A stretch of 64,000 nucleotides of DNA from Desulfosarcina sp. BuS5 (GTDB taxonomy: Bacteria; Desulfobacterota; Desulfobacteria; Desulfobacterales; BuS5): positions 3,284,501-3,348,500 of the forward strand of contig NZ_CP087952.1 of assembly GCF_028752835.1 (NCBI RefSeq), read 5' to 3'. Position numbers and translations under genes: made by a program. The notes beneath the pieces were generated by a model that had not been told where the DNA came from, searched no databases, and worked only from the letters and a program-made list of their open reading frames with translations. Below, piece by piece: positions 6,250 to 49,251 of this stretch (the stretch's first letter is position 1; each line of letters opens with the position of its first letter).

Positions 6250-6419
6250 TGGGGTGTCTAAATCTGGGGTGTCTAAATCCCCATAATTAGCTTGCTCAGG
6301 ATTTGGCCCCCCCTTCAGAATATAAGTTATGTATGTCAATTTACTACATTTATAAACAAAGCATTAACTTGTTGATAATACCCATTATTTATATTTGAAT
6401 GTGGTCAAACAAATGCTTA

Positions 6420-8059: not shown

Positions 8060-8195
8060 AGCAATAACCATCTTTTTGGTTAAAATATTTGAATATATAG
8101 GGAATAATAATTTTTTTCAATCAGCAATTTTGAATTATTGACGGCATTTTGTTATGGTCTACGCAAATTTTACTGAAAATATTGAAGGTGCCTGA

Positions 8196-8501
8196 ATGAC
8201 ATATGATAGATTGCAAGCAAAAATAATCCCTGGCAAACATTGTAGCTTTTGTGGAAACGATTCTGTTCCTTTAATAAAAACAAAATGTTGTGACCAATGG
8301 ATTTGCTGTGACACTTCTTTTGCATCTATAAAAGGTGGAGATTATTGCCAATATCATCACGAGCACGAGAGTCTCTGTCATTTTCAGTACAATAACAGCC
8401 ATTCAGGGATATGGCAGGAGTGCAAAGAATGCCGGGATTTGGTTGGGGAAGATAATTTTAATGCTGCATTTCATGACCCCAACAATGTGCCAAGATATTA
8501 A
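8196..8501 (+). CDS. Cys/His-rich IS passenger protein, copy 1
   Basis: A 101-residue protein divergent from the transposase and inside the IS ends. It has several Cys pairs (CSFCGN near residue 17, KCCDQWICC near 30, CKECRD near 79) and a HHEH cluster, suggesting zinc binding. AAGGTG precedes the ATG. It differs from the second copy by two residues in the HESLCHFQ region. I do not recognise the family; a regulatory or transposition-accessory role is a guess based on its constant place in both copies. Confidence 0.65.
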   Translation: MTYDRLQAKIIPGKHCSFCGNDSVPLIKTKCCDQWICCDTSFASIKGGDYCQYHHEHESLCHFQYNNSHSGIWQECKECRDLVGEDNFNAAFHDPNNVPRY

Positions 8502-8570
8502 TCGCACTCATGATAGGGCCAAAAGTTGAGCAAAAAAAGTAGCCACAAAACTGAGTTTTTGGACACCCCA

Positions 8571-9192
8571 GATTTAACGCTTCTTGTCACCACTGCACCC
8601 ATTCCTACAACGGAGCCTTTTCCTATAATGATTGCCCTCTCATTAGTGCCTTGTTTAATCACAACCCCAGTTCCTATGTACTCATAATCCTCCACAACAA
8701 CTTTTCCATTGCAATGAACGCTTGGAGCGAATGTAACAAAATCTCCAATTACACAATCATGAGCTACATAAGAATAAATATTAGCATGAAAAATCTTCCG
8801 ATCTTTGCATTGGATGTTACAGTAGTAAAAGGGCATAGAATTGCACCTTCTCCTATTGTATTGTCGTCATAAGTGACGTTATTAAGGGCCTGTATAGTAA
8901 AAGGTTTAATATTGGACGTAAGCATTTTGTTGGCAATACGTTCGCGAGTTTTGTAGTCTGCAATTGCGATGTTAAAATATTTATTATCGGCTTGGCAAGA
9001 AAGGAAATATGACTCGCTAACCACTTTATGCCCATTAATGACTGTTTGTTTTTCGAGATTCTCAACAACAAAGACCAATTCATGTCCTTTGCTTCCATAA
9101 GTGTCGGCAATCATTTGGCGTGCAACCGGCATGACCTCTCGTCCAAATCCTCCCGCACCGATTATTCCATAGAGTTCTGTTCTGTAAATCAT
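8571..9192 (-). pseudogene. NeuD-family sugar O-acyltransferase, frameshifted and truncated
   Basis: The start at 9192 (AGGAG upstream) begins MIYRTELYGIIGAGGFGREV, the N-terminal Rossmann part of NeuD/PglD-type acyltransferases. The left-handed beta-helix hexapeptides follow: TIGEGAILCPFTTVTSNAKIG, cut here to key residues, then in another frame HANIYSYVAHDCVIGDFV and IIGKGSVVGMGAVVT. The frame changes near 8790-8800, and the 3' end is cut at 8570 by the right end of the IS, so the gene is broken twice. It would be the first cargo of the cassette run described at 9244-11510. It may once have acetylated a surface sugar. Confidence 0.8.
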
Positions 9193-11441: not shown

Positions 11442-11510
11442 GGCTAATCGCGGCGCAGCCGCCTGGAACGTCGCAATTAACCGGCGCGTTTTTTGCGTCC
11501 GTGTTTCCAG
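11442..11510 (-). other. attC-like site C, interrupted by the group II intron
   Basis: On the plus strand GGCTAA (11442) is followed by TCGCGGCGCAGCCGCCTGGA, then ACGTCGCAATTAACCGGCGC and a TTTTTTGCGTCCG arm. This is the same order as in site B but with a shorter GC-rich insert. The far box (GTTAG-type) is not present; instead the intron 3' end begins at about 11511. Confidence 0.45.
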
Positions 11511-11984
11511 GTAGGAGCATCGGTTACCCGACGCCCCCCCCTACAGACCCGTACGTGAAGATTTCCCTCATACGGTTCCTCGGTTCAAATCCTTTTTACC
11601 GGATTATCAACCAAACAGGCGACACCCCGTTTGGCGTATAACTTTGCAGCCCTTACGGCATCAAATATTATGGACTATTCTGGGTAATGGCAGTGGGTAT
11701 GTTGTGCGCAAGTCCTCGAACATTACTTCGCCCTTGTGACTTCTTCGGCTTAACCATCGACGCCATGCTTTCTCAGTATATTCAAACACAACTTCCAGCG
11801 CTTTGTAGTTACTTATTACACCAAAGTACTGGTAAAAACCTCGCAGTTTACTGCAAAGGAATCTCATACTGCTCGACCATTGGCTTATGACGGTTATCCT
11901 TGCACCATATCCATATTCTCTTCATAAAACGGCTTGAACGCTTTCTTGCCGTCTTTTTCTTTATTACCATGTACCCTTTTAATG
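11511..11984 (-). mobile_element. Group II intron, 3' remnant
   Basis: On the minus strand the end of a maturase frame is followed by a domain V-like hairpin (GAACCGTATGAGGG / CACGTACGGGTCTG, about 11544-11582) and a domain VI-like hairpin with a TTAC loop (about 11511-11541). Domains I-IV and most of the reverse transcriptase are missing because IS copy 2 starts at 11985. The intron lies directly against attC-like site C. Class was not determined. Confidence 0.75.
11661..11984 (-). pseudogene. Group II intron reverse transcriptase/maturase, C-terminal fragment
   Basis: The frame ending at 11661 reads LRGFYQYFGVISNYKALEVV and on to WRRWLSRRSHKG, the conserved end of the maturase (GIIM) domain. 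Upstream of about 11867 the match continues in another frame (WCKDNRHKPMVEQYEIPLQ, then a stop), so there is a frameshift near 11865. The 5' part is lost at the IS boundary. Confidence 0.75.
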
Positions 11985-12140
11985 TGGGGTGTCTAAATTC
12001 CCATAATTAGCTTGCTCAGGATTTGCCCCCCCCCTTCAGAATATAAGTTATGTATGTCAATTTACTACATTTATAAACAAAGCATTAACTTGTTGATAAT
12101 ACCCATTATTTATATTTGAATGTGGTCAAACAAATGCTTA

Positions 12141-13780
12141 TTAAGCTGCGGCACGGTTATTATATTCGGCATTATTGAGCGCGTAAGGTTGTTTTGTAAA
12201 CTTATTTACGGGCCCACCTAATTGTTCAAAATTTGCTGTAATATCAGTTACATCTTTTGATTTTTCATCATTTTTTGGCACCGGTAGAAGAGTTAAACCA
12301 CAGTCAAACTCAGTTGACAAACTATCTGTAAGGCTTCCGGGGGTTGGTAAAATTTTTCGGCGCTGCCGAGTTAAAGACAACAACTTATTTTCAACTTCCT
12401 GTTGTTCCTTTACTGTAACGCCCATTGCCATCCGAACGGATTCTCTATTCACAGATCCGCAAAAAGCCGGTAAACGAAGTGCAATTCGGTTTGCATCTTT
12501 TACTTCTCCTGTACCATGTGTTTTACCAAGTCCAAACAGGGATTCAATATTATCAGAACAAATAGGCATTCCAGTATTGCCCATGCCCAATGATTCAGCG
12601 ACTATTAATTGTTTTTCCATCCAGGTAATAAAACCGATACGTACTTGAGAGCTTTGAGGGATATTTTTTAAAAGTTCTTTGCACTCTTTGTAGGTTTTCA
12701 TATTCAAGCCTTGAGCTTTAAGAATTTCCTGGCTTTTTAAAAGAGGAGATGCATCACGAAGAAATCGCTTGATAAACTGTTTATATTCAGGAAGTTTACC
12801 AAGATAATTCCTAAGTTTTGAAACTACAGAGCCCTTTGAAACTCGCCCCCGTGGTGAGTGCTTAAGAACCATTTCAGCCCATTTCACCATTCGATGAATA
12901 TTCATGAATCGAGCTTTTGTCGAAACCTTTGGGGGTGCAAAAAATGCAAGTACTGTTTGCTTAAATTTTTTTGAGGCTTGTCCGCAAGCAGAGATAAAAC
13001 AGTCATACGAAGGATGTTTTGTATATTCTTTTTTTAATAGATTGGCAACAACATGAGAAATATCATCAATGGAGAAACTTGAAAATCCTCTTTCATTTAG
13101 GAGTCTGACACCTTTCATGAGGTCCATTCCTCCGTCTTTCAAATATGCAGCAGGTTTTCCGGTGATGAGAATCACCTTTTGTAAAAAATTTGCAATGGAT
13201 TCTCCAGTCCATGATTTCGCCACTGAAATTGCTACACAATTGATGTTTTCAAGAGTTGGAGCACCTTCATGATTTTTAAAATGATCAGTTCTAAGCTCCA
13301 AAATAGCAAGAATTTTATCAGCTCCCAATGCTATTGAGGTATCTATCATCCAAATAGCACCATTTACAATCTTATCCATATCAAAAGAAACAGAAGAAAG
13401 CCCTTTATAGTTCCAGATTTTTGATAGTGAATATCTGGTGACCCAGTTAATGATCGTTTGAGGGCACGGTGTTTTGGTTATCCCAAGGTATGCTTGTAAA
13501 ATGCCAAACATTCTTGATATTGCTCTGAATCCAACGTGTCCGACCAAAAATAGGCGTAAAGAAATAAAAATCAATTCCTCCTTACTATTAACCGACAATG
13601 TGTTCTTTTTACGTTCTTGTTCTAATTCTTGTCTATTTTTCCGGAGTTCAGACTTGTATTTATTTCGTTCATTTTTAGTACGTTTCAGCTCAGCTTTCTG
13701 ATACTTAATTATACGAGTACGATCAACTGCTTTGTCTTTCCAGGCAGTTCTACTTTTTTTAATTTTGAAACTTTACTCAT
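12141..13780 (-). CDS. IS transposase, copy 2, probably made by -1 frameshift
   Basis: The 485-residue main frame is identical in translation to copy 1, and the upstream coiled-coil segment, the ATG at 13780 and the run of seven A (13754-13760 on this strand) are all conserved. The one visible nucleotide difference inside it (near 13512) is silent. Both copies therefore look equally functional. Confidence 0.8.
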
Positions 13781-13916
13781 AGCAATAACCATCTTTTTGG
13801 TTAAAATATTTGAATATATAGGGAATAATAATTTTTTTCAATCAGCAATTTTGAATTATTGACGGCATTTTGTTATGGTCTACGCAAATTTTACTGAAAA
13901 TATTGAAGGTGCCTGA

Positions 13917-14222
13917 ATGACATATGATAGATTGCAAGCAAAAATAATCCCTGGCAAACATTGTAGCTTTTGTGGAAACGATTCTGTTCCTTTAATAAAA
14001 ACAAAATGTTGTGACCAATGGATTTGCTGTGACACTTCTTTTGCATCTATAAAAGGTGGAGATTATTGCCAATATCATCACGAGCACGAGGGTCTCTGCC
14101 ATTTTCATTACAATAACAGCCATTCAGGGATATGGCAGGAGTGCAAAGAATGCCGGGATTTGGTTGGGGAAGATAATTTTAATGCTGCATTTCATGACCC
14201 CAACAATGTGCCAAGATATTAA
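13917..14222 (+). CDS. Cys/His-rich IS passenger protein, copy 2
   Basis: 101 residues, differing from copy 1 only where HESLCHFQ becomes HEGLCHFH. All Cys are kept. It is divergent from the transposase and lies inside the IS ends. Confidence 0.65.
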   Translation: MTYDRLQAKIIPGKHCSFCGNDSVPLIKTKCCDQWICCDTSFASIKGGDYCQYHHEHEGLCHFHYNNSHSGIWQECKECRDLVGEDNFNAAFHDPNNVPRY

Positions 14223-14291
14223 TCGCACTCATGATAGGGCCAAAAGTTGAGCAAAAAAAGTAACCACAAAACTGAGTTTTTGGACACCCCA

Positions 14292-14605
14292 GCTATAAAC
14301 AGGTTGCCGTCCTTCTGTTTGTAAGGGACAAATTGATGTTGGGTCATAAGATCAAAAGGAATCTGTTCAAAAAGATCAAATTCAGGAGGATCTTCAAGTT
14401 GAACATAGGGGCATGAACACTGAGCAGCAATTATTTGGGCAAGTTTTTCTTCATCAATAATTCCTTCCTGGATACAGAGATATCCCAACCGCTGTTTTGT
14501 AATATTCTGCTTGGAGAGAATATGATCAAGCTGTTCATTGGTCATGAAGCCCAGCTTGATCGCCCACTCTCCGAATTTTAATTTTTTATATGATTTAACA
14601 GGCAT
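14292..14605 (-). pseudogene. PilB/GspE-type secretion ATPase, N-terminal fragment
   Basis: The ATG at 14605 (AAGGGA upstream) opens MPVKSYKKLKFGEWAIKLG, then MTNEQLDHILSKQ, GYLCIQEGIIDEEKLAQIIA and PFDLMTQHQFVPYKQKDGNL, the N-terminal T2SSE/MshEN domain of type II secretion and type IV pilus assembly ATPases. About 105 residues remain; the IS end follows and the ATPase core is nowhere in the window. It lies 17 bp downstream of the intact PilC/GspF gene in the same direction, so the pilus or secretion operon is interrupted. Only the N-domain fused to a short IS-derived tail could be made. Confidence 0.85.
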
Positions 14606-36480: not shown

Positions 36481-37074
36481 CTATTTCTCACCAAACATAT
36501 TCATGATGCACAGCATCAGCCCGAGGCAGACAAAAGCGCCAGGGGCCTGAACCATGAAAGCAAAAGGATGAAATGAAGCACCGAACAGGGCATGCCCGTA
36601 GAATGTACCGGTGCCAAGAATTTCCCGGATTCCGCCCAGGGCACCCAGAGAAATTGTAAAACCCAAACCCATCCCGAGTCCATCCACCATGGATAATAAC
36701 ATATTGTTTTTAGAAGCAAATGCCTCAGCCCGTCCCAAAACAATACAATTTACAACTATTAAGGGTATAAACATGCCGAGCTGCATAAAAAGCTTGTAGG
36801 TAAAGGCCTGCATGAGAAGTTCCACAACTGTAACAAAGGTTGCAATAATAATGATAAAACAGGCGATTCTGACCTTGGCGGGTATTATAGTGCGTAATGC
36901 CGAAACCAGTATATTCGAACATATCAAGACAAACGTAGTGGCCAGCCCCATACCTATGCCGTTTTGCATTGTTGTTGTTACGCCAAGAACGGGGCATAGC
37001 CCGAGTACCAGTCTGAAAGGCGGTATTTCGTCCCACAGTCCCTTGGTAAATTCTTTAGCAATTGATTTAGCCAT
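36481..37074 (-). CDS. rnfE: Electron transport complex subunit RnfE
   Basis: A 197-residue membrane protein homologous to RnfA. LVLGLCPVLGVTTTMQNG and VVNCIVLGRAEAFASKNN contain the conserved Cys pair. The N-terminus EFTKGLWDEIPPFRLVLG is typical of RnfE. It lies 12 bp from both neighbours in the operon. Confidence 0.95.
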   Translation of the reverse strand: MAKSIAKEFTKGLWDEIPPFRLVLGLCPVLGVTTTMQNGIGMGLATTFVLICSNILVSALRTIIPAKVRIACFIIIIATFVTVVELLMQAFTYKLFMQLGMFIPLIVVNCIVLGRAEAFASKNNMLLSMVDGLGMGLGFTISLGALGGIREILGTGTFYGHALFGASFHPFAFMVQAPGAFVCLGLMLCIMNMFGEK

Positions 37075-37085
37075 CCGTCATCTCC

Positions 37086-37679
37086 CTATTTAGAAAATCC
37101 CTTTAGTTTTTCCTGGATTTGTGGTTTCAATTTTCTATAAATGCCGCAGGCATCAGTGGCTGCCAGACAGACACCCCGTGATGTAATGGTAGCGCCGCTG
37201 ATAGCGTTTATCGCCCCTCCATCGTTTGTGACTTTTATCTCTTTTTTCGTAGAGACTCCATGAAACTGTGCCGCAAATGAGGGATCACTCTTAGCCTTTT
37301 CGCCCAGGCCCGGGGTTTCTTTATGGGTTGTAACGCTGATAGAGGCTACTTTGTCGGTTTCCACGTTTATTCCGACCATAAGCCCGAAGGCGTCGGCAAA
37401 GCCTTTGCCTGAAACCTCAAAAACAACCGTAGAAGGCTTGCCGTCAAATGCTCCGACAAAAAAAATTCTTTCAACATCTCCGTCCTTTATTTTAAAACGA
37501 TCCTTAATCGGATCATTAGAGGTGCCGGCAAGGATTTTTTCTATAGCCGGGCCTTTGACGAATTGCAGCTCCTGATTTTCGATTGTTTCCCTGGTTCCGT
37601 TGCGAACAGCGGCCAGCAGGCCTCCTGAAAAAGCGCTTAAAATTGTAAGCACGACAACCATTTTTATCATTTCATTCAT
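37086..37679 (-). CDS. rnfG: Electron transport complex subunit RnfG
   Basis: 197 residues from the ATG at 37679 (MNEMIKMVVVLTILSAFSGG). One N-terminal membrane helix precedes a periplasmic FMN-binding domain. INAISGATITSRGVCLA near residue 165 is the SGAT motif whose Thr carries covalent FMN added by ApbE. ETPGLGEKAKSDP is also conserved. The start codon is one base after the rnfD stop. Confidence 0.93.
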   Translation of the reverse strand: MNEMIKMVVVLTILSAFSGGLLAAVRNGTRETIENQELQFVKGPAIEKILAGTSNDPIKDRFKIKDGDVERIFFVGAFDGKPSTVVFEVSGKGFADAFGLMVGINVETDKVASISVTTHKETPGLGEKAKSDPSFAAQFHGVSTKKEIKVTNDGGAINAISGATITSRGVCLAATDACGIYRKLKPQIQEKLKGFSK

Positions 37680-37680
37680 A

Positions 37681-38640
37681 TTACCCAACCTTTCCGATCG
37701 CTCTTGGTCTGATCTTATCCAGCATCGGATTAACAAGATTCATAACCAGAATCGCAAAAATTACGCCGTCCACATAAACCCCTATATTCCTGATCAGCAC
37801 GGTCATAACACCTGCACCGGCTCCGTAAATCAGCATTGGAATAAAATTAACCGGGGAAGATGAATCCTCGGTTGCAAGAAAAAAAGCGCCTATTAACGTA
37901 TAACCTGTCAGCAAATGGAAAAAAGGTCCTGCAAAGCGGGCCGAATCGTTAATGTGAAAAATCAGGGCGGTTATAAAAATTCCCGCCAGGAATGAGACGG
38001 AAATTTCCCATCTTATGATACCTCTTATAATAAGGTAGATTCCCCCGATAATTATGCCGATACCGAATGTAGAACCGATCCCGCCCGGCTGTTTGCCCAG
38101 CAGGAGATCGCAAATGCTAAAGCCGTCAATGGCCGATGTTCCGAAATGTTTAAGCGCCGCCAGGGGATATACCATAATAAAATTCAGATCATAGTTTAAG
38201 AGAGCTTCATTAAAGTCGAAGAAATCCTTCCACGAGACCATCAGGATGGCAATTGCAACAACCACCGGGTTAAAAGGATTGCTCCCGATACCGCCATAAA
38301 TTTGCTTGCCAAGCACAACCGCAATAAAAGTTCCGGTTATGACAACCCACCAGGGTATTCCCGCAGGCAAAAGCATGGCCAAAAGGATGCCTATTACACC
38401 TGCGTTGCCGTCTCCGATTGATAATGGCCGCTTTGTAACAAGATTCATCAAAAGTTCCCAGATCATGGCAGAAGATACGGACAAACAGACAACCGCAAGA
38501 GCGGGTATGCCGTATAATAACAGACCTGCAATTATTGCCGGCAAAGCCGCAAGCATCGTATTATAACTTCGAGAGGAGATTCCGCTCCCGTCGTGCCAGA
38601 ATGGAGCATGGGAAACCGTAAGTTTTTTTGTGCTAATCAT
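37681..38640 (-). CDS. rnfD: Electron transport complex subunit RnfD
   Basis: 319 residues from the ATG at 38640. The N-terminal TVSHAPFWHDGSGISSRSYN and GSNPFNPVVVAIAILMVSW are characteristic of RnfD/NqrB. Multiple membrane helices are present. I do not see the usual S/T-x-A-T-P flavinylation motif: where family members read xATPLAALK, this one reads MVYPLAALK. The start overlaps the end of rnfC by eight bases. Confidence 0.92.
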   Translation of the reverse strand: MISTKKLTVSHAPFWHDGSGISSRSYNTMLAALPAIIAGLLLYGIPALAVVCLSVSSAMIWELLMNLVTKRPLSIGDGNAGVIGILLAMLLPAGIPWWVVITGTFIAVVLGKQIYGGIGSNPFNPVVVAIAILMVSWKDFFDFNEALLNYDLNFIMVYPLAALKHFGTSAIDGFSICDLLLGKQPGGIGSTFGIGIIIGGIYLIIRGIIRWEISVSFLAGIFITALIFHINDSARFAGPFFHLLTGYTLIGAFFLATEDSSSPVNFIPMLIYGAGAGVMTVLIRNIGVYVDGVIFAILVMNLVNPMLDKIRPRAIGKVG

Positions 38641-39940
38641 CATTTGCCTCCTCTGTAATCTCCTCCCCAGTTTGCAAACGGAACAGTTCATGTTTGGCCA
38701 GTCTTATATACTGAAAAATCGGTATTTTTGCAGGACAGACATATGAACAAAGACCGCATTCAATGCATGACTGGAGGTCATATTCATCCTCCGCTTGCTC
38801 ATAAAGACCTGCTTCAAGAAGTCTGACAAGCATATTAATCGGAATATTTGCGGGACACATTCTGATACATTCCCCGCAATTAATGCAGGGGCAATCGGAA
38901 ACAAGCGGTATTACCGAAAAATCCTGGATAATAACGGCATCAGTATCCGGCAAGACCGGAAGGTCTGCTGAATATACCGCTGAACCGGTCATCGGACCGC
39001 CGAGAACTATCCGGTCCTTTTCGTTTAGATGAATATCCAGGGCATTGAAAATGTTGCTTAAAGGGGTGCCGATACGGGCGGACACAAAAGCAGCCGTTCC
39101 GTCCTTTTTTATCACCGTGATTTTCTTATTAACCGGAATCACGCCGTCTTTAAAAGCGCTGCCTATGGAAGCTGCGGCCTCGGCGTTTATAAAGGTTACT
39201 CCCATATCTTCACAGGTTTTGCCGGCCGGAACAACAAGACCCAAAACATCCTTCATAATCATCCGTGGTGAGGCTGCCGGATACTGGGGGGCAATAATCT
39301 TTGTGACGGCATCCGCGGCTGAAGCCTCGTGTTTGAGGTGCCTTGGAACCGCAAAAATAATTTTTTCCGCGGCGATGGCTTTTTTAAGAATATCAATTCC
39401 ATCTTTTATGCTGTTCATGTCCGCTTTGACCATATACTGATTTGTTGAAATCAGCAGGTCATTATCAATACCGCATATAACAAGTGTTTTTACAGCCCCG
39501 TTATTGTCTGAAAACAGGTGCGGAGGAATACCTCCCGGGCATGATAAAAGAAAATCCCTGATACCGTTAAAAGGATCTTTTACTGCAATTTTGCCGAAAT
39601 CGGCATCTATCTCTTCATCCGGAGCGGTTTCAATCGAAATTGCCATATACTTTTTGCCGAAATTACCGCTAAACGGTGTGACGGACGAGATTCTGCCGGT
39701 AACAGTTGCGGTTACATATATACCGTTCTCCCCGGAAAGAGTCAGCTTCTGTCCGGTTTTAACCTTGTCCCCCTCTTTAATTGAAAACTGTCCATTGGCG
39801 CTTGATTTTTCTGAGACTGTCTCCAAAAGTAGAGTAACCTTTTCCGGCAGTTCGATGTTCCGAGGTTCCGGCAGCAAACTCTCAAGGGTTTCATACATAA
39901 GCCTCGGCTTTGCTAAACCGATAAATGATTTTTTTATCAT
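38633..39940 (-). CDS. rnfC: Electron transport complex subunit RnfC
   Basis: 435 residues. The middle part is related to NuoF/Nqo1 with NAD- and FMN-type loops (VLGGPMTGSAVY), and the C-terminal part has two 4Fe-4S motifs, CPCINCGECIRMCPANIP and CIECGLCSYVCPAKIP. RnfC is the cytoplasmic subunit that contacts NAD(H) or ferredoxin. It follows the cytochrome c3 gene by 58 bp and starts the structural Rnf genes. Confidence 0.95.
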   Translation of the reverse strand: MIKKSFIGLAKPRLMYETLESLLPEPRNIELPEKVTLLLETVSEKSSANGQFSIKEGDKVKTGQKLTLSGENGIYVTATVTGRISSVTPFSGNFGKKYMAISIETAPDEEIDADFGKIAVKDPFNGIRDFLLSCPGGIPPHLFSDNNGAVKTLVICGIDNDLLISTNQYMVKADMNSIKDGIDILKKAIAAEKIIFAVPRHLKHEASAADAVTKIIAPQYPAASPRMIMKDVLGLVVPAGKTCEDMGVTFINAEAAASIGSAFKDGVIPVNKKITVIKKDGTAAFVSARIGTPLSNIFNALDIHLNEKDRIVLGGPMTGSAVYSADLPVLPDTDAVIIQDFSVIPLVSDCPCINCGECIRMCPANIPINMLVRLLEAGLYEQAEDEYDLQSCIECGLCSYVCPAKIPIFQYIRLAKHELFRLQTGEEITEEANDD

Positions 39941-39998
39941 AGTTCAACCTTTTACTGTTTCTACCGCGTTGAATTAAAAAATATAAAAATAAAAAAAA

Positions 39999-40379
39999 TT
40001 ACATAACATGGCAGGATGCGCATTTTTCAGGCCCGGCTTCGTTTTCCTGATGGCAGCCGATACACTGGGAATGAAATGCATCGGTTCTTGCGGGAACGTC
40101 TTCATCATCCGATTCGATCTCATGGCATTCACCGCAGGCTTGAGGATCGGTTTCACCTTCTTCGAGATTATGATGGCAGTCACTGCAGGCAACATCGTAA
40201 CCGGATTCAGATGTATGCATTTTGTGGGTAAATAAGACTTTCCCGGCAACGCCCTTGAACATTAGCCTTACCGGCTGGTCAGGAGATTTTGCAGGAAAGG
40301 CGGCGTAGCTTATAACGCCGACAACCAGTAGAACCAAGGTCAGGCTTAAAGCCGGCAACAATTCTTTTTTGGAAGTCAT
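39999..40379 (-). CDS. Tetraheme cytochrome c3-family protein of the Rnf operon
   Basis: A 126-residue exported protein: a hydrophobic N-terminal segment (LLPALSLTLVLLVVGVISYA) acts as signal or anchor. Four CxxCH sites follow: CSDCH, CGECH, CIGCH and CASCH, with distal His such as FTHKMH, as in class III cytochromes c3. It is first in the Rnf operon. In sulfate reducers and some methanogens, a multiheme cytochrome with Rnf links the complex to periplasmic or membrane electron carriers, so a link to the periplasmic c-type pool is likely. Confidence 0.92.
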   Translation of the reverse strand: MTSKKELLPALSLTLVLLVVGVISYAAFPAKSPDQPVRLMFKGVAGKVLFTHKMHTSESGYDVACSDCHHNLEEGETDPQACGECHEIESDDEDVPARTDAFHSQCIGCHQENEAGPEKCASCHVM

Positions 40380-40662
40380 ACTTGCTTATACCTTTCATTA
40401 TGAGCCCTTTGATCATTGAAATTTTCAAAGCGCTACATTTAAGAATTTGGTGAAAAAATTAAATGGACTTGAAAAAATACGTTTATCTTAATAAAATGTT
40501 GAAACATTTATCATGGCGTAAAAACTTTTTCAAGTTTTTTTACATTAAACTGAAAATTCCATACCAAATAATACCGAGTTTAGACTTGAGTTATCATAAA
40601 CAACATCAGAGAAAAGGGCGAAACAATATATTTACTTATAAATGCCGGTAAACAAAAAAAGT
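40380..40662. other. Divergent intergenic region between Rnf and ilv operons
   Basis: AT-rich, no supportable gene. It must contain the promoter of the leftward Rnf operon; I could not pick a single convincing -35/-10 pair for it. Confidence 0.4.
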
Positions 40663-40691
40663 TTGACAATAATTTCCATGGTTGTTAGAGA
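40663..40691 (+). promoter_or_regulatory. Predicted promoter of the ilv operon
   Basis: TTGACA at 40663-40668, a 17-bp spacer, and TAGAGA at 40686-40691. Transcription would start about 50 bases before the leader peptide, which suits an attenuator. The -10 match is weak. Confidence 0.45.
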
Positions 40692-40746
40692 ATAATTCAA
40701 TATGTTGTTGATGTGCGTAGCAACTCCTTTGTATAAGGTTTATAAA

Positions 40747-40827
40747 ATGAATAAAATTTTAGTCATTATCATTAGTATTCTCGTCCTATCGGTGGAGATA
40801 ATTACCTGCCTTCAGGATGATGGCTGA
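40747..40827 (+). CDS. Ile/Leu/Val-rich leader peptide of the ilv operon
   Basis: A 26-codon frame: ATG at 40747 with ATAAGG upstream, reading MNKILVIIISILVLSVEI followed by ITCLQDDG and a TGA at 40825. Fourteen of 26 residues are Ile (7), Leu (4) or Val (3), exactly the products of the downstream operon. The stop codon overlaps the 5' arm of an antiterminator hairpin. This is the hallmark of ribosome-mediated attenuation as in enterobacterial ilv leaders. The sequence is unlikely to be chance given its position and the paired RNA structures. Confidence 0.85.
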   Translation: MNKILVIIISILVLSVEIITCLQDDG

Positions 40828-40899
40828 TAATGACTTAATTTTATATGTAATTTATAAAATCCGTTATCAGCGTAAAAAACTGATAACGGATTTTTTTTT
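40824..40899 (+). terminator. ilv attenuator: antiterminator and terminator
   Basis: Terminator: ATCCGTTATCAG (about 40859-40870) pairs with CTGATAACGGAT (40880-40891), loop CGTAAAAAA, then a T run to 40899, ending 15 bases before ilvD. Antiterminator: CTGATAATG (40824-40832), which includes the leader stop codon, pairs with CGTTATCAG (40862-40870), the 5' arm of the terminator. A ribosome reaching the leader stop would cover CTGATAATG and let the terminator form; one stalled at Ile/Leu/Val codons would leave it free and allow read-through. Confidence 0.85.
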
Positions 40900-40914
40900 G
40901 GGAGATTGAAAATA

Positions 40915-42579
40915 ATGAAAAGTGACAGCGTTAAAAAGGGTATTGAAAGAGCGCCTCATCGCAGTCTTTTTAAGGCTATCGGATATACTGATGAAGAGCT
41001 TCGAAGACCTCTTATAGGGATTGCCAATTCAGCCAATAGCCTAATTCCCGGTCATGTTCATTTGAACAGGATCGCAGGGGCGGTCAAGGCAGGTATTTAC
41101 ATGGCCGGAGGTACGCCTTGTGAATTCGGCGTAATTGGTGTTTGTGATGGTATCGCCATGAATCATATCGGGATGAAATATTCCCTGGCAAGCAGGGAGA
41201 TTATCGCAGATTCCGTTGAAGTAATGGCAATAGCCCATGCATTAGATGCTATAGTAATGGTAACAAATTGTGATAAAATTGTACCGGGCATGCTTATGGC
41301 TGCTGCCCGCCTTAATATTCCTGCAATTTTTATCAGCGGCGGCCCCATGCTGGCCGGCAAAGATCCCTCAGGCACCGGGGCAATAGATCTGGTGACTGTT
41401 TTTGAATCGGTGGGCGCTTTTAAGTCAGGCAGAATGAGCAAAGAACGATTGAATGAAATTGAGGATACAGCTTGTCCCACATGCGGATCATGCGCCGGTA
41501 TGTTTACGGCCAATTCCATGAACTGCCTGACTGAAGTAATAGGTATGGGCTTGCCTGGCAACGGCACTATCCCGGCTGTCATGTCTGCCAGGGTCCGTTT
41601 GGCAAAAGAGGCGGGGATGAAAATTGTAAGCCTTTTTGAAAAAAATATAACCGCCAGGCAGATTATGACCAAAGAGGCTTTTAAAAATGCCCTGGTTGTA
41701 GATATGGCGCTGGGATGCTCGACAAATACTATTCTTCATTTACCGGCAATTGCCAAAGAAGCGAAAGTAGGTATAGATCTTAACATGATCAATGAAATCA
41801 GCGAGCAAGTGCCCCATATCTGTTCATTAAGCCCGGGAGGAATACACCATATGGAGGATCTGAATCTTGCAGGAGGTATTCAAGCGGTCATAAAGGAAAT
41901 TACAAAAACCGGCTTGATTAATGAGCAATCTATAACCGTCACTGGAAAGACCGTGGGTGAAAATATTAAAGAGCAAGTCATTAAAGATGAAAATATTATC
42001 AGGCCGCTTGATAATCCATATCATAAAGAAGGTGGACTTGCCGTTCTATTCGGAAATCTTGCTCCTGATGGATGTGTTGTAAAGCAGTCCGCAGTGCTCG
42101 ATAAAATGTTATGTCATGAAGGTCCGGCCAGGGTATATGAGTCGGAAGAAGATGCAACAGATGCCATTATGAACGGCATTATAAAAAAAGGTGATGTGAT
42201 TTTAATCCGATACGAAGGGCCGATGGGCGGGCCCGGCATGCGAGAAATGCTAACGCCGACATCCTCAATCGCGGGAATGAAACTTGACGCGCATGTGGCG
42301 CTCCTCACGGACGGACGTTTTTCAGGAGGAACAAAAGGAGCATCCATAGGGCATATTTCACCCGAAGCGATGCAGGGGGGACCTGTTGCTATTGTTGAGG
42401 AAGGAGATATTATTGCTATTGATATCCCGGGAAAAAAGATTACTTTAAAGGTTTCGGAAGATGAGATAAAAAAAAGACTCTCAGCCTGGTCGGCTCCTGA
42501 ACCCAAGATAAAAGAGGGATATATGGCAAGATATGCAAAAATGGTTTCATCCGCCAGCAAGGGAGCGATTGTTCAATAG
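40915..42579 (+). CDS. ilvD: Dihydroxy-acid dehydratase
   Basis: 554 residues. GGGAGA precedes the ATG at 40915. [31 protein letters not shown] and [20 protein letters not shown] are the IlvD/Edd family signatures; the Cys residues bind the Fe-S cluster used in dehydration. It makes the 2-keto acids for valine and isoleucine. It is the first structural gene of the operon, directly after the attenuator. It is followed by a 158-bp palindromic element before ilvB. Confidence 0.96.
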
Positions 42580-42739: not shown

Positions 42740-42770
42740 GTTTGTAATTAATTTTACGGAAGGAATGCCT

Positions 42771-44456
42771 ATGAAACTTACAGGTGCGCAGATCCTTATG
42801 AAGGCTCTCAAGGAAGAGGGAGTTGATACAATTTTCGGGTATCCAGGCGGGGCAGTGCTGGATATATACGATGAACTTTCCAAAACGGAAATGCGTCATA
42901 TACTTGTGCGTCACGAGCAGGGAGCTGTTCATGCTGCAGACGGTTATGCCAGGGCGGCCGGCAAAACCGGAGTCTGCCTGGTAACATCAGGGCCCGGTGC
43001 CACCAATACTGTTACCGGCATAGCATCAGCATATATGGATTCGATCCCCATAGTTATTATAACAGGTCAGGTTCCCACTAAACTTATCGGGAATGATGCC
43101 TTTCAGGAAGTCGATATAGTCGGCATTACAAGACCTTGCACAAAGCATAATTATCTTGTCAAGAATGTAGCGAATCTTGCAACAACAATCAAAGAGGCTT
43201 TTTATATAGCAGGTTCAGGTCGTCCCGGGCCGGTGTTGATTGACATACCCAAGGATATTGTTAATGACCTCGCTGAATATGTATCACCAGAAAAAGTAAG
43301 TTTGAGATCTTACAACCCCACCTACAACCCGAACATTAAACAGATCAACAAGGTTGTAAAACTGATTCACAAAGCCGTAAAGCCCGTTATTTTTGCAGGC
43401 GGCGGCATTATTCTTTCCAAGGCGCATGCAGAATTGACTCAATTTGCGCGTAAAACACGGATACCCGTAACTGCCTCTTTAATGGGCCTGGGGGCATTTC
43501 CTGCATCTGATCCTTTATGGCTGGGAATGATCGGTATGCATGGTACATACAGATCCAACATGGCCATAGGAGAATGTGATCTGCTGATTGCCGTTGGTGT
43601 CCGTTTCGACGACCGTGTTGCGGGAAGAACGGATACGTTCGCTTCAAATGCGGAGATTGTCCATATAGATATTGATCCCACATCCATTCAGAAGAATATT
43701 TCCGTTTCGGTGCCTGTTGTGGGAGACTGCAAAACCACACTTGAGCATCTTAACAAGCTGATAAAAAAAGAAGATTTTGGTGATATCGGTCAGAAGTGCA
43801 AAGGCTGGTTAGATAAAATTAATGAGTGGAAAAGCACCCGGCCGCTGGCTTATACCCAAAGTGATATTATCAAACCTCAATATGTAATTGACAAACTTTA
43901 TGAATTAACCAAAGGAAAGGCTATTATAACTACGGAAGTGGGGCAGAACCAGATGTGGGCAGCCCAGTATTACCATTTTGATGAGCCTAATCATTTTATT
44001 ACCTCAGGCGGCTTGGGCTGTATGGGTTTCGGCCTGCCTGCGGCCATAGGGGCACAGGTCGCATGCCCGGATAAAATTGTGGTCGATGTAGCCGGCGACG
44101 GCAGCATCCAGATGAATATTCAGGAAATGGCGACTGCCGTTCAATATGGACTTCCGATAAATATTGTTATCCTGAACAACCAATATCTCGGCATGGTGCG
44201 ACAGTGGCAGGAATTATTTTACGGCAAACGTTATTCAAGTACCAGCATGGAACATGCCCCGGATTTTGTCAAACTTGCCGAAGCCTATGGCGCGGTCGGT
44301 TTAAGAGCCGTAAGACCGGAAGAGGTTGAGCCTGTGCTGTCAGAAGGTCTATCTTCCCCCAAGACCGTAATAATGGAATTTGTTGTGGCGCGGGAAGAAT
44401 CGGTTTATCCCATGGTTCCTGCGGGCGCTTCCATAACAGAAATGCTTTTAGTATAG
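42771..44456 (+). CDS. ilvB: Acetolactate synthase, large subunit
   Basis: 561 residues from the ATG at 42771 (GGAAGGA spaced six bases; an ATG at 42765 is less well placed). IFGYPGGAVLDIYDEL, LVRHEQGAVHAADGYARA, LVTSGPGATNTVTGIASA and the ThDP motif GDGSIQMNIQEMATAVQYGL with NNQYLGMVRQWQELF mark a biosynthetic AHAS. It condenses pyruvate with pyruvate or 2-ketobutyrate. The gene is followed by its regulatory subunit. Confidence 0.96.
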   Translation: MKLTGAQILMKALKEEGVDTIFGYPGGAVLDIYDELSKTEMRHILVRHEQGAVHAADGYARAAGKTGVCLVTSGPGATNTVTGIASAYMDSIPIVIITGQVPTKLIGNDAFQEVDIVGITRPCTKHNYLVKNVANLATTIKEAFYIAGSGRPGPVLIDIPKDIVNDLAEYVSPEKVSLRSYNPTYNPNIKQINKVVKLIHKAVKPVIFAGGGIILSKAHAELTQFARKTRIPVTASLMGLGAFPASDPLWLGMIGMHGTYRSNMAIGECDLLIAVGVRFDDRVAGRTDTFASNAEIVHIDIDPTSIQKNISVSVPVVGDCKTTLEHLNKLIKKEDFGDIGQKCKGWLDKINEWKSTRPLAYTQSDIIKPQYVIDKLYELTKGKAIITTEVGQNQMWAAQYYHFDEPNHFITSGGLGCMGFGLPAAIGAQVACPDKIVVDVAGDGSIQMNIQEMATAVQYGLPINIVILNNQYLGMVRQWQELFYGKRYSSTSMEHAPDFVKLAEAYGAVGLRAVRPEEVEPVLSEGLSSPKTVIMEFVVAREESVYPMVPAGASITEMLLV

Positions 44457-44517: not shown

Positions 44518-45015
44518 ATGACAGCAGAAAAACATGTTCTCTCGATTCTGGTGGATAACAAGCCGGGCGTACTTTCAAGAATAGCAGGTCTTTTCAGCGG
44601 CAGGGGATATAATATTGAAAGCCTCTCTGTTGCCGAGACCATGGATCCCCTGGTTTCACGGGTTACGCTTGTTACAAAAGCCGATGCACCTGTTATAGAA
44701 CAGATAGAAAAGCAGCTTAATAAACTGATCAATGTGATTAAGGTGCATGATTTTACAGGCGCAGAATATGTGCAGCGGGAAATGGTTCTAATCAAGGTAA
44801 CTGCAAAACCGGAACATCGTGCTGAAATTTTAAGAATGGTCGATATCTTCAGGTGTAAAGTTGTTGATGTGGGAATGGAACATTACACCATAGAGACAAC
44901 CGGAGATCAGGGTAAAATCAATGCTATTTTAAACCTTCTTAAGCCCATCGGCATTAAGGAGATAGTCAAGACCGGTATTATTGCGCTGCTGCGCGATCAA
45001 TATACCAAAAAATAA
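44518..45015 (+). CDS. ilvN: Acetolactate synthase, small (regulatory) subunit
   Basis: 165 residues with an N-terminal ACT domain: KHVLSILVDNKPGVLSRIAG, FSGRGYNIESLSVAETMDP, and the second half TAKPEHRAEILRMVDIFRCK. In the family this subunit activates AHAS and binds valine for feedback control. The length is typical. It lies 19 bp before ilvC. Confidence 0.95.
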   Translation: MTAEKHVLSILVDNKPGVLSRIAGLFSGRGYNIESLSVAETMDPLVSRVTLVTKADAPVIEQIEKQLNKLINVIKVHDFTGAEYVQREMVLIKVTAKPEHRAEILRMVDIFRCKVVDVGMEHYTIETTGDQGKINAILNLLKPIGIKEIVKTGIIALLRDQYTKK

Positions 45016-45034
45016 AAAAAACAAGGAGAATAAA

Positions 45035-46102
45035 ATGGGCAAGATAGACTTTGGAGGAGTAGTAGAAGATGTTGTTACCAGGGAAGAGTTTTCCCTGGAT
45101 AAAGCCAGGGAAGTACTTAAAGATGAAACAATAGTTGTGCTCGGGTACGGTGTTCAGGGTCCTGCGCAGGCTTTGAATCTTAAAGATAACGGCTTTAATG
45201 TTATCATAGGGCAGCTTGAAGGGGACGCCTACTGGGAAAAAGCGGTTAAGGATGGTTTTGTTCCAGGCAAAACTCTTTTTCCTCTTGAAGAAGCCGCAAA
45301 ACAGGGAACAATCATTAAAGAACTTCTTTCCGACGCCGGCCAGACTGCCACCTGGCCTGTAGTTAAAAAATGCCTTAATGAGGGTGATGCCTTATATTTT
45401 TCACATGGTTTTTCAATTGTTTATAAAGATCAAACCAGGATTATACCTCCTGACAATATCGATGTTATCCTAGTGGCTCCCAAAGGATCCGGAACCAATG
45501 TGCGCAGAAATTTTCTTGACGGCAGCGGTATCAATTCAAGCTATGCGGTTTTTCAGGATTATACTGGAAGAGCTAAGGAGAGAACCCTTGCGCTTGGAAT
45601 AGCCATAGGCTCAGGATATCTTTTCCCGACTACCTTTGAAAATGAGGTTTACAGCGACCTGACCGGCGAACGCGGCGTTCTTATGGGCTGCCTGGCCGGC
45701 ACAATGGAGGCCCAGTATAATATATTGAGAAAAAACGGGCACTCCCCCAGTGAAGCATTTAATGAAACCGTTGAAGAACTGACCCAAAGCCTCATAAGAC
45801 TGGTCGGTGAAAACGGCATGGACTGGATGTTTTCAAATTGCAGCGCTACAGCACAGAGGGGCGCATTGGACTGGGCGCCGAAATTCAGGGATGCGGTTAC
45901 TCCTGTTTTTGAAGATTTATACGACCGTGTTAAAACCGGCAAAGAAACAAAACGCGTCCTGGAAGTAAACAGCGCTCCTGATTATCAGGAAAAACTTACA
46001 GCAGAATTAAATGAGATAAAAAATTCCGAGATGTGGCAGGCAGGAGCAGCAGTCCGCTCATTAAGGCCGGAAAATAGAAAAATTCGACATCTTTCAATTT
46101 AG
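45035..46102 (+). CDS. ilvC: Ketol-acid reductoisomerase
   Basis: 355 residues from the ATG at 45035 (AAGGAG upstream; a longer frame to 44981 overlaps ilvN and is rejected). The dinucleotide loop is VVLGYGVQGPAQALNLKDNG. LVAPKGSGTNVRRNF, ENEVYSDLTGERGVLMG and FSNCSATAQRGALDW carry metal- and substrate-binding residues. It belongs to the less common KARI branch with GYGVQGPAQA in place of GYGSQGHAHA. It acts after AHAS. Confidence 0.94.
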   Translation: MGKIDFGGVVEDVVTREEFSLDKAREVLKDETIVVLGYGVQGPAQALNLKDNGFNVIIGQLEGDAYWEKAVKDGFVPGKTLFPLEEAAKQGTIIKELLSDAGQTATWPVVKKCLNEGDALYFSHGFSIVYKDQTRIIPPDNIDVILVAPKGSGTNVRRNFLDGSGINSSYAVFQDYTGRAKERTLALGIAIGSGYLFPTTFENEVYSDLTGERGVLMGCLAGTMEAQYNILRKNGHSPSEAFNETVEELTQSLIRLVGENGMDWMFSNCSATAQRGALDWAPKFRDAVTPVFEDLYDRVKTGKETKRVLEVNSAPDYQEKLTAELNEIKNSEMWQAGAAVRSLRPENRKIRHLSI

Positions 46103-46115
46103 GGAGAAGAAAAGC

Positions 46116-47717
46116 ATGGATCCAGTCCTCTTGTATGATACCACCCTGCGTGATGGTACACAGGGTGAATATATCAGTTTTACAGCCAAGGAAAAAATCG
46201 TCATAGCGCGAAGGCTTGATGATATGGGTATCCATTATATTGAGGGCGGATGGCCCGGTTCCAATCCAAGAGATATGGTTTTTTTTGACCTGGCAAAGGA
46301 TATAAATTTTAAAAATTCCAGGTTAACTGCATTTGGCGCAACAAGGAAGCCGGGCATTATTCCTGGAAATGATAATAACCTGAAAGCGCTTCTCAACAGC
46401 GGCACGGACACGGTTACGATTTTTGGAAAAACATGGGATCTGCATGTTGAGCAGATCATGCAGAACAGCCTTAAAGAGAACCTTGCAATGATCAATGATT
46501 CCGTTGCTTTTTTAAAAGAAAAGGGACGTGAAGTAATTTTTGATGCCGAACATTTTTTTGACGGATATAAGGCCAACAAAGAGTACGCATTGCAATCTCT
46601 ATTTGCGGCTGCAGACGGCGGAGCGGATATACTGGTATTATGCGATACAAACGGAGGTACGCTTCCCTTTGACATTGAAACTATCATTGCCTGCCTGATA
46701 AACAGGTTGAAAAAAAAATATAATCAAGTGGATGGGTCGCTTCCGGTCAAGATCGGCATACATACGCATAACGACAGCGGACTTGCTGTGGCTAATTCCA
46801 TAACCGCAGTTCGGGCAGGAGCTGATATGGTACAGGGCACCATTAACGGCTACGGAGAAAGATGCGGCAATGCGGATCTTACATCAATTATCCCGATTCT
46901 GGCATTAAAGATGGGACTGCCCGGCCTTTCCAAAGAAAATATTAAAAAACTAAAGAATATATCGCGATTTATCAGTGATACAGCGAATATGACGCCCCTT
47001 AGCAACAGACCCTTTGTCGGGAAAAGTGCTTTTGCGCACAAAGGCGGAATTCATGTCAGCGCTATTATGAAAAATCCCATGGCTTACGAACATATGCAGC
47101 CGGAGCTGGTGGGAAACAAACGCCGTGTCTTAATGTCGGATCTTTCCGGAAAGAGTAATGTGGAGTATAAGGCCAAAGAACTCGGGATAGATCTGGATGC
47201 AGAAGGGGTTGACAGCAGCCGCCTGGTAGCACGAATCAAAGAGCTGGAGCAGCAGGGTTATCAATTTGAGACTGCGGATGGCTCCTTAAAGTTATTGATG
47301 GAAAGATTTAAAGATCGGTTTAAGCCGATGTTTGAGTTAAAATCCTTTATGGTGACAATTATAAAGGAAAAGGACAAACCATGCACTGCTCAGGCTTCGA
47401 TTAAAATTTCAGCCAAGGGAGTCGAAAAAATTACGGTTGCCGAAGGAGATGGCCCTGTAAGCGCTTTGGACAATGCAATTCGTAAGGCTCTGAATAAATT
47501 TTACCCGGATGTCCTCTCATCAACCCAGCTTGTAGATTTCAAGGTAAGAGTAATAGATGGTCGTGAAGGAACAAAGGCAAAGGTCAGAGTTATTATAGAA
47601 TCCAGAGACAAAAATAATATATGGAGCACCATAGGTGTTTCCGAAGACATAATAGAGGCAAGCTGGCAGGCGCTGGCAGATAGTTTGCAGTATAAACTGT
47701 CAAAAGAAGGAGAGTAA
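46116..47717 (+). CDS. cimA: (R)-citramalate synthase
   Basis: 533 residues. YDTTLRDGTQGEYISFTA, EGGWPGSNPRD, GIHTHNDSGLAVANSI and GTINGYGERCGNADL are the metal-binding and catalytic motifs of the isopropylmalate synthase superfamily, and the TQGEYISFT and GWPGSNPRD variants identify the CimA branch. A C-terminal regulatory domain (residues ~390-530) is present. It condenses pyruvate and acetyl-CoA into citramalate, giving 2-ketobutyrate for isoleucine without threonine deaminase. AGGGAGA precedes the ATG. Confidence 0.92.
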   Translation: MDPVLLYDTTLRDGTQGEYISFTAKEKIVIARRLDDMGIHYIEGGWPGSNPRDMVFFDLAKDINFKNSRLTAFGATRKPGIIPGNDNNLKALLNSGTDTVTIFGKTWDLHVEQIMQNSLKENLAMINDSVAFLKEKGREVIFDAEHFFDGYKANKEYALQSLFAAADGGADILVLCDTNGGTLPFDIETIIACLINRLKKKYNQVDGSLPVKIGIHTHNDSGLAVANSITAVRAGADMVQGTINGYGERCGNADLTSIIPILALKMGLPGLSKENIKKLKNISRFISDTANMTPLSNRPFVGKSAFAHKGGIHVSAIMKNPMAYEHMQPELVGNKRRVLMSDLSGKSNVEYKAKELGIDLDAEGVDSSRLVARIKELEQQGYQFETADGSLKLLMERFKDRFKPMFELKSFMVTIIKEKDKPCTAQASIKISAKGVEKITVAEGDGPVSALDNAIRKALNKFYPDVLSSTQLVDFKVRVIDGREGTKAKVRVIIESRDKNNIWSTIGVSEDIIEASWQALADSLQYKLSKEGE

Positions 47718-47718
47718 G

Positions 47719-49251
47719 GTGAAAGATAGAATAATTTTTTTTGATACCACATTAAGGGATGGCGAGCAGTCTCCAGGCGCAAGCATGAATACTGCAGAAA
47801 AGATGAGGCTGGCGGTGCAACTGGAAAAACTCGGTGTGGATGTTATCGAAGCCGGTTTTCCGGCGGCGTCGGAAGGAGATTTTGAAGCGGTTTCCGAAAT
47901 TTCAAAGAAGGTAAAAAACATTGAAATTGCCGCTTTAACGCGTACCGGCAAGGGGGATATTGACCAGGCCTGGGGTTCTGTTTGCAAAGCGGCCAAGCCG
48001 AGAATACATATATTTATAGCCACCTCGGATCTGCATATGGCTCACAAGTTGAACATGACCAGCGATGAAGTGGTTCAAGCAACTGTTGATTCAATAACAT
48101 ATGCCAAAAAATTGACTGATAATATTGAATTTTCAGCCGAAGACGGGTCACGCAGTGACCGGGATTTTCTATGCCGGGTTTTTGGAGCAGCCATTGCAGC
48201 CGGAGCAACAACGGTTAATCTGCCCGATACAGTAGGGTATGCTGTTCCCCATGAATATGCCGAGTTGATCAAATATGTTATGGACAATACTGAAAACATG
48301 CACAAGGCGGTATTAAGCGTTCACTGCCACAACGACCTGGGTCTGGCCACGGCCAATACCCTGGCGGCGATTAGTGCGGGCGCCGGCCAGGCCGAAGTAA
48401 CTATCAACGGAATCGGGGAAAGAGCCGGAAATACCGCCCTGGAAGAAGTTGTTATGGCCCTGACTACCAGGCCCAATTTTTACCCGGTATCAACCGACAT
48501 TAATACTGAGCTTATTTGTCCAACCAGCAAGCTGGTGAGTATGATAACCGGTATCATTGTACAGCCCAACAAGGCTATTGTCGGAGCCAACGCCTTTGCC
48601 CACGAAGCCGGCATTCACCAGGACGGAGTCTTGAAAAATCCCATGACCTATGAGATTATGAAACCTGAAACAGTAGGTCTGGTAAGCAACAAACTTGTCT
48701 TAGGGAAGCACTCGGGAAGACATGCTCTTCGCTCACACCTCCAGGAGATGGGATACGAGCTTTCGGATGAAGACATGAAAATAGTATTTACCAAATTTAA
48801 AGAAATTGCGGACAAGAAAAAAAGCATAGAAGATGAAGATCTTGAAGCAATCGTTACCGAAGGTATCCTGAGAACCAAGGACGTATTTTTACTTGAATAT
48901 CTGCATGTGGCCAGCGGAACAACCGTTTTCCCCATGGCAAGTATCAAGCTCAGCATCAACGGCCGGACTGTAAAAGGGTCCGGTTACGGAAACGGGCCGA
49001 TAGATGCCGCATTTAATACTATCGCGCAACTTGCTGATATCAGCCCCGAGCTATTAAGGTTCTCGATAAGCGCTTTAACCGGAGGCAGCGATGCCCAGGG
49101 TGAGGTAACAGTCCGCTTAAAGGAAAACGGCCTGATAGCCCTCGGCCGGGGAGCTGATCCGGATATTATAGTGGCCAGCGCCAAAGCCTATGTTAACGGA
49201 CTGAACAAGATTGAATACCTTAAATCCTCGAAATACCAGGAATCTGTTTAG
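47719..49251 (+). CDS. leuA: 2-isopropylmalate synthase
   Basis: 510 residues from a GTG at 47719 with AAGGAG upstream. [35 protein letters not shown] and [20 protein letters not shown] are LeuA signatures; [20 protein letters not shown] supports it. The C-terminal ~120 residues form the leucine-binding regulatory domain. It is the last gene of the ilv operon. leuB, leuC and leuD are not adjacent here. Confidence 0.95.

Follow-up and report, generated by a model that had tools for sequence, protein, structure and literature searches.

The leader region of a branched-chain amino acid (BCAA) operon, a candidate transcription attenuator, was characterized in a stretch of 64,000 nt from Desulfosarcina sp. 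BuS5 (contig NZ_CP087952.1, positions 3,284,501 to 3,348,500, forward strand), hereafter called the window, from whose first letter positions are counted. According to NCBIfam models the operon comprises ilvD, ilvB, ilvN, ilvC, cimA and leuA, in this order (Table 1). It is preceded by a leader open reading frame (ORF) of 26 codons, 14 of them for Ile (7), Leu (4) or Val (3), closed by TGA (40825–40827) and followed in frame by TAA and TGA. Beyond it lies an intrinsic terminator with a stem of 15 bp (40856–40870 with 40880–40894), a loop of 9 nt, a folding energy of -18.7 kcal/mol and a T-run (40891–40899) that ends 15 nt from the ATG of ilvD. The fold of the 226-nt leader had a z-score of -5.03 against dinucleotide shuffles. 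A preliminary description of this DNA had reported the 26-codon peptide with its 14 Ile/Leu/Val codons, the terminator 15 bases before ilvD and a deltaproteobacterial-type operon using citramalate; all three were borne out, the last by the match of cimA to TIGR00977 and by the closest named relatives of IlvD, which are the metagenome-assembled genomes Desulfobacterales bacterium isolate G11 (97% identity) and Deltaproteobacteria bacterium isolate AUK125 (94%). A simple consensus scan for terminators listed none here, its loop limit being 8 nt versus an actual loop of 9 nt.

The richness of the frame in BCAA codons was rejected as stand-alone evidence, as 9 of the 1861 small ORF starts of the window, the leader included, are equally rich (at least 12 and at least 50% Ile, Leu or Val codons). 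Richness alone being weak evidence, it is position, pairing and conservation that set this leader above chance.

Three alternative helices were found among four segments. Segment 1, inside the leader frame, pairs with segment 2, at the leader stop, in a protector of 11 bp (40761–40771 with 40825–40835), within a larger hairpin that has outer (40751–40758/40837–40844) and inner (40781–40787/40814–40820) flanking helices. Segment 2 can pair instead with segment 3: CTGATAATG at 40824–40832, spanning the stop codon, is the partner of CGTTATCAG at 40862–40870, and this 9-base pairing, already proposed in the preliminary description, becomes an antiterminator of 10 bp (40823–40832 with 40862–40871) once G40823–C40871 is counted. 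Antiterminator 2:3 and terminator 3:4 both use segment 3 and are mutually exclusive. The layout is the classical 1:2 / 2:3 / 3:4 three-hairpin attenuator, and for the window the earlier view of a compact two-state device, simpler than the enteric ilv leaders, is contradicted by the 11-bp protector.

The conservation of this arrangement was examined at ilvD loci of related genomes. Of 58 Desulfobacterales genomes 55 had IlvD, and among the 30 best loci retained, window included, 27 carried a BCAA-rich leader and a terminator upstream of ilvD; relatives lacking both the frame and the paired arms, the finding that would have spoken against attenuation, were thus the exception. Of the other three, L030 had a leader with a weaker hairpin, and L020 (222 nt upstream only) and L021 had neither at ilvD. 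In a collection of named genomes, 80 loci were returned and 79 examined (the match of L093 begins inside the contig), and 33 had leader and terminator at ilvD, seven of these duplicating earlier loci. The 46 loci without a leader, examined at ilvD only and including some with less than 200 nt upstream (L064 and L065 among them), had IlvD identities of at most 74% and labels that include Desulfobacterales and Syntrophomonas-type. Among plasmid records 74 matched, none over more than 80% of the query, and the five listed match within the coding part of ilvD only, none on the leader.

An alignment of 53 distinct leaders was built, from which L071 and L105 were dropped as spurious and L030, the leader with the weaker hairpin, was left out. 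Mean pairwise identity was 0.94 in segment 3, 0.88 in segment 4, 0.80 in segment 2, 0.56 in segment 1 and 0.43 in the spacer. Segment 2 was retained as nucleotides across different reading frames (43, 9 and 1 of the 53 leaders). The strikingly conserved segment 3 is what would be expected of an RNA that binds a metabolite or a protein (a T-box, a riboswitch or the target of an RNA-binding protein) and controls the terminator, with the frame being incidental. We consider this most improbable: the need of segment 3 to pair with both segments 2 and 4 accounts for its constraint with no additional ligand, and Rfam 15 gave no relevant match in the window at the gathering threshold, only chance-level matches in the leader at E ≤ 10 and none at E ≤ 0.05 in 20 related loci. 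The T-box covariance model likewise gave no match in the window (gathering), in the leader (E ≤ 10) or in the 20 related loci (E ≤ 0.05). Attenuator patterns with multiple interactions have been described as staying conserved at large distances (PMC1262725), which fits the conservation of segment 3.

The pairings of both states were supported by covariation over the 53 leaders. For protector plus terminator, 87.1% of cells were paired and 19 of 33 pairs had changes on both sides, a value reached by 0 of 500 shuffles; for the antiterminator the figures were 93.1% and 4 of 12 pairs, reached by 2 of 500 shuffles. Shuffled and slid controls remained below the observed alignment in paired cells and covariation score for both states, in a comparison that favours the tested 1:2 and 2:3 structures over the slid controls, as they were named by hand from the consensus. 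The 14-pair helix of the terminator, with 97.0% of cells paired, was by far the best kept, and together with the many individual 2:3 duplexes that are no better than shuffles it would agree with a constitutive terminator, without any switch, in which the 2:3 pairing is a by-product of segment similarity. That explanation is hardly credible in view of the 93.1% pairing of 2:3 and of its compensatory changes (L010, alignment columns 137–189; L013 and L085, 136–190; L051, 133–193). The terminator also seems to end no upstream gene, since its recognised upstream neighbours, Rnf-type genes and a gene for a cytochrome c3 family protein, are divergent and lie on the minus strand; a mechanical plus-strand ORF of 62 amino acids is found at 40463–40651. 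The protector was the least conserved of the three helices (78.0% of cells paired), its strength varies in relatives, and some of them may depend on it less.

To determine the breadth of the family, the covariance model R1 was searched within the phylum Desulfobacterota. It matched 331 of 389 genomes of the order (E ≤ 0.001), the build sequences being among these matches, which correspond to 135 of 150 genera; 189 of the 201 high-quality genomes (at least 90% complete, at most 5% contaminated) were matched. A class-level search matched 257 of 291 genomes, and among the genomes listed all belonged to the same order. In a phylum sample of 297 genomes, 29 gave a match at E ≤ 0.01, of which 10 belong to the order and 19 lie outside it. 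In 16 of these 19, which represent six families, a BCAA-rich leader precedes cimA, leuA or ilvB (best E from 8e-11 to 1.6e-4).

The remaining three were rejected as members: L164 and L167 are aromatic leaders with other terminators and L168 has no recognised context. A second match in the genome of the window (3325354–3325492, minus) was rejected as the reverse strand of the same place, as were many second matches elsewhere. Two further matches, L210 and L211 (G144:C252), have terminators with the segment 3 sequence of the family; neither a convincing BCAA leader nor any ilv, cimA or leuA gene was seen in the fetched stretch, and they are remnants or plain terminators.

The genes behind the leaders differ. 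In the fetched regions the leaders precede ilvD-ilvB-ilvN, ilvB-ilvN-ilvC(-cimA), ilvB-ilvC-ilvD, cimA alone, cimA-leuA, cimA-ilvD, leuA-ilvB-ilvN, a leuA-like gene (30% identity to LeuA), a lone ilvB, or ilvC with one ORF between. Forty regions were fetched, 37 analysed (L210, L211 and L213 were left out) and 34 classified, the unclassified ones being L219 (stretch too short), L195 (ilvC first) and L212 (cimA-ilvD). The mean share of Ile among Ile, Leu and Val codons was 0.74 before cimA only (n = 8; stretches in which neither leuA nor an ilv gene was seen), 0.33 before cimA-leuA (n = 9), 0.24 where leuA or the leuA-like gene comes first (n = 3) and 0.45 where ilvB or ilvD comes first (n = 14). 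Leaders are thus Ile-rich before cimA alone, with more Leu before cimA-leuA and more Val and Leu before leuA. The cimA-only class differed from the rest with p = 6e-5 (one-sided Mann–Whitney test), a comparison with fewer independent events than leaders, owing to shared descent, and with ORFs selected by a score for Ile, Leu and Val taken together.

Among genomes with two leaders, those before different genes differ in the expected direction in six (G632, G590, G421, G565, G017 and G280); for G082 and G009 there was no clear expectation. In G565, for instance, the cimA-only leader has 10 Ile, 1 Leu and 1 Val codons versus 3, 3 and 4 in the leader of ilvB-ilvC-ilvD. Exceptions to the trend are the lone ilvB of G082 (Ile share 0.82) and the cimA-only leader L227 (just 0.50). 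The former (L206, G082:C18:1539–1717) is a second ilvB copy whose leader, with 9 Ile, 1 Leu and 1 Val codons, is strongly Ile-rich unlike the other ilvB leaders read; it is perhaps an isoleucine-dedicated acetolactate synthase. In G009 a second BCAA leader (L195, G009:C1165:433–600) is followed by an ORF of 299 amino acids, presumably resembling a D-aminopeptidase, and then by ilvC.

The correspondence between codon content and downstream genes is the strongest evidence that codons, and not a folded ligand site, are sensed. It argues against the binding RNA considered above and also against the reading of the frame as a real small hydrophobic (membrane) protein, with the terminator as a mere transcriptional brake. 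In favour of such a protein, the sequence reads as hydrophobic and about as long as a transmembrane segment, and the element occurs widely among genomes of the order. A membrane protein is nevertheless very unlikely: within the genus Ile, Leu, Val and Ser are exchanged (MNKILVIIISILVLSVEIITCLQDDG versus MNISLVIIISLLSLLVEILVCLQDDG, with IlvD 94% identical), the C-terminus of the peptide is read in different frames over the same nucleotides, and the most conserved part, segment 3 (0.94), lies outside the frame.

The effect of a ribosome on the leader was modelled by folding the RNA up to segment 3 while masking every base as far as 15 nt beyond the first position of the A-site codon. In the window the probability of the antiterminator, P(2:3), was 0.08 in the free leader RNA and 0.96–1.00 whichever of the 14 BCAA codons the ribosome occupied; from codon 23 on, stop codon included, it was 0, a value built into the mask. 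P(2:3) exceeded 0.8 at some BCAA codon in 50 of the 53 leaders, window included, the exceptions being L085 (0 throughout) and L008 and L015 (below 0.6).

Taken together, the region is very probably a ribosome-mediated leader-peptide transcription attenuator of the classical three-hairpin type that controls the six-gene operon, as had been proposed for it; conservation, covariation of both states and codon content favour this, and from them and the anatomy of the locus we infer leader translation, transcription–translation coupling, ribosome stalling and read-through in the cell. When charged tRNA-Ile, tRNA-Leu or tRNA-Val is scarce, the ribosome would stall in the 14 BCAA codons and melt segment 1; segment 2 would then pair with segment 3, no terminator would form and the operon would be transcribed. 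When all three charged tRNAs are plentiful, the ribosome would reach the stop codon and cover segment 2, so that 3:4 would form and transcription would end before ilvD. Without translation the protector 1:2 would form, and the terminator would likewise be left free.

Several results weigh against attenuation or limit its support. With the RNA at full length, stability favours the terminator (-18.7 kcal/mol) over the antiterminator stretch taken by itself (-15.3 kcal/mol), and read-through would therefore need co-transcriptional (kinetic) folding. In the free RNA, P(2:3) was below 0.2 in just 18 of the 53 leaders, with a mean of 0.51, so the protector is not uniformly strong; either its strength varies or equilibrium folds that lack the 5' untranslated region understate it. 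Unsupervised consensus folding recovered the terminator only (11 pairs). Antiterminator controls slid by +2 and +3 gave 5 and 6 cells changed on both sides versus 5 observed, and the +3 control also reached 4 pairs changed on both sides. Individual 2:3 duplexes were better than shuffles (p ≤ 0.01) in 23 of the 53 leaders, with p = 0.14 for the window. Codon-choice support for 1:2 was moderate: in a strict test, which took a single representative from each 75% cluster and located segment 2 by alignment column, 5 of 32 had p ≤ 0.05 (Fisher p = 0.0016; window p = 0.07), and an earlier, looser test on all 53, with segment 2 anchored on the stop codon, had given 17 of 53 at p ≤ 0.05. The 53 sequences were selected for leader and terminator and share descent, and the ORF score rewards Ile, Leu and Val, so these p-values are optimistic. 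Finally, 12 of the 201 high-quality genomes of the order had no R1 match.

The known systems nearest in kind are the enteric ilvGMEDA and leuABCD attenuators, which have a leader peptide rich in regulatory codons and protector, antiterminator and terminator segments before the first gene. The present leader shares these features and differs in its lineage, in its operon (ilvD first, cimA for isoleucine) and in the lack of an Rfam leader family match. The other systems were compared through their published descriptions. The attenuator of Corynebacterium ilvBNC (ilvB-II motif) also has a BCAA-related upstream ORF with terminator and antiterminator before an ilv operon; by its description it is set apart, being reported in the genus Corynebacterium, before ilvB (PMC10272879), and a three-hairpin model has been given for it (PMC11857589). 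The ilvB-OMG and Leptospira ilvB motifs, suggested attenuators, have BCAA- and Thr-rich ORFs upstream of ilvB (PMC10272879); the comparison was by description, and the 20 related loci matched no Rfam family at E ≤ 0.05. The ilvD (WRC-18-2) motif is a structured RNA upstream of ilvD, in some cases with a terminator; by its description it is set apart, having been put forward as a weak candidate riboswitch and from the genus Veillonella only (PMC8632094). Actinobacterial ilvB leaders have short frames with Ile, Val and Leu codons and terminators, their mode of regulation being called unclear in a paper where codon substitution in Streptomyces coelicolor had no effect (PMC1262725). In the portions of the literature covered, ilv-type leaders or attenuation were reported for Escherichia coli, Corynebacterium and other actinobacteria, Staphylococcus, Listeria and Leptospira, with the ilvD motif in Veillonella. 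No description for the present lineage was found in the open-access literature, a provisional result, as the two likeliest comparative papers (Vitreschak 2004 and Lopatovskaya 2010) are outside that scope. By every feature examined on the sequences this is a ribosome-mediated leader-peptide attenuator; the mechanism is of a known kind, and its lineage, its breadth and the retuned codons seem new.

Features of the locus are detailed in Table 1. Of the 53 aligned loci, 51 had at least 120 nt upstream, and 47 of these have an exact TTGACA in the 150 nt before the leader start, versus 4.8% of mononucleotide shuffles; the candidate -10 element of the window is weak, with 3 of 6 positions matching, and the promoter site was not in the list of the generic scan. 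The minus-strand genes at 36481–40379, divergent from the operon, encode Rnf-type electron-transport proteins together with a class III cytochrome c and an FMN-binding protein.

Table 1. Features of the ilvD leader region and operon in the window.
Feature	Position	Strand	Basis or remark
Candidate promoter: TTGACA (40663–40668), 17 nt, TAGAGA (40686–40691)	40663–40691	+	TTGACA kept in loci; TAGAGA by sequence reading
Leader ribosome-binding site TAAGG, 8 nt before ATG	40734–40738	+	Sequence reading
Leader peptide ORF MNKILVIIISILVLSVEIITCLQDDG, stop TGA	40747–40827	+	ORF; BCAA-rich leader ORFs in relatives
Segment 1 AGTCATTATCA, Val-Ile-Ile codons, 5' arm of protector 1:2	40761–40771	+	Folding, covariation over 53 sequences
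Segment 2 GCTGATAATGACT at leader stop; partner of segment 1 (40825–40835) or segment 3 (40823–40832)	40823–40835	+	
Segment 3 CGTTATCAGC, antiterminator partner of segment 2, within terminator 5' arm (40856–40870)	40862–40871	+	
Intrinsic terminator 3:4	40856–40899	+	Fold; 14-pair helix 97.0% paired over 53 sequences
ilvD ribosome-binding site GGGAG	40900–40904	+	Sequence reading
ilvD, dihydroxy-acid dehydratase	40915–42579	+	NCBIfam TIGR00110 / NF002068
ilvB, acetolactate synthase large subunit	42765–44456	+	TIGR00118
ilvN, acetolactate synthase small subunit	44518–45015	+	TIGR00119
ilvC, ketol-acid reductoisomerase; provisional start, mechanical ORF begins 44981	45017–46102	+	TIGR00465
cimA, citramalate synthase	46116–47717	+	TIGR00977
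leuA, 2-isopropylmalate synthase, GTG start	47719–49251	+	TIGR00973 and NF002086, both above cut-off

Two observations stand apart from the operon. Three weak R1 matches, L213 (G023:C20:31196–31343), L164 (G526:C86) and L167 (G469:C140), are aromatic leaders with Phe/Tyr-rich frames (MKTTLVNTSGYFFFYFFKYFICPPEVLVV; ...YYFFYYTW...; ...FFNFISNFWFSFYYYYF...) and terminators that differ from those of the family. A DeoC/LacD-family aldolase (Pfam PF01791), perhaps an alternative aromatic-pathway enzyme, is among the downstream genes; the others we take to be a shikimate-kinase-like ORF followed by a chorismate-synthase-like ORF, and a DAHP-synthase-like ORF. Aromatic attenuators may thus also exist in the phylum. 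The window also contains a direct repeat of 2.3 kb, 99.6% identical (6261–8571 and 11981–14292), with a group II intron match (11505–11580, minus) just before the second copy, which suggests mobile elements.

With regard to the family as a whole, we lean towards the view that a single attenuator design, its core near-frozen through the order (TGATAATGG / CCGTTATCAG / CTGATAACGG) and still recognisable in six further families of the phylum sample, has moved between BCAA operons (ilvD-first, ilvB-first, ilvC, cimA, cimA-leuA and leuA) with its leader codons retuned each time. If true, the group would be a natural series for how an attenuator alters its amino-acid specificity on a largely unchanged switch, and such attenuation would not be essentially a gammaproteobacterial invention. 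The analysis offers an annotation for a leader ORF and an RNA that lack an Rfam family, a covariance model and a testable natural series. It points to a BCAA attenuator in most genomes sampled (331 of 389) from an order whose members are anaerobes, largely uncultured, and to weaker relatives of it elsewhere in the phylum, in other families.
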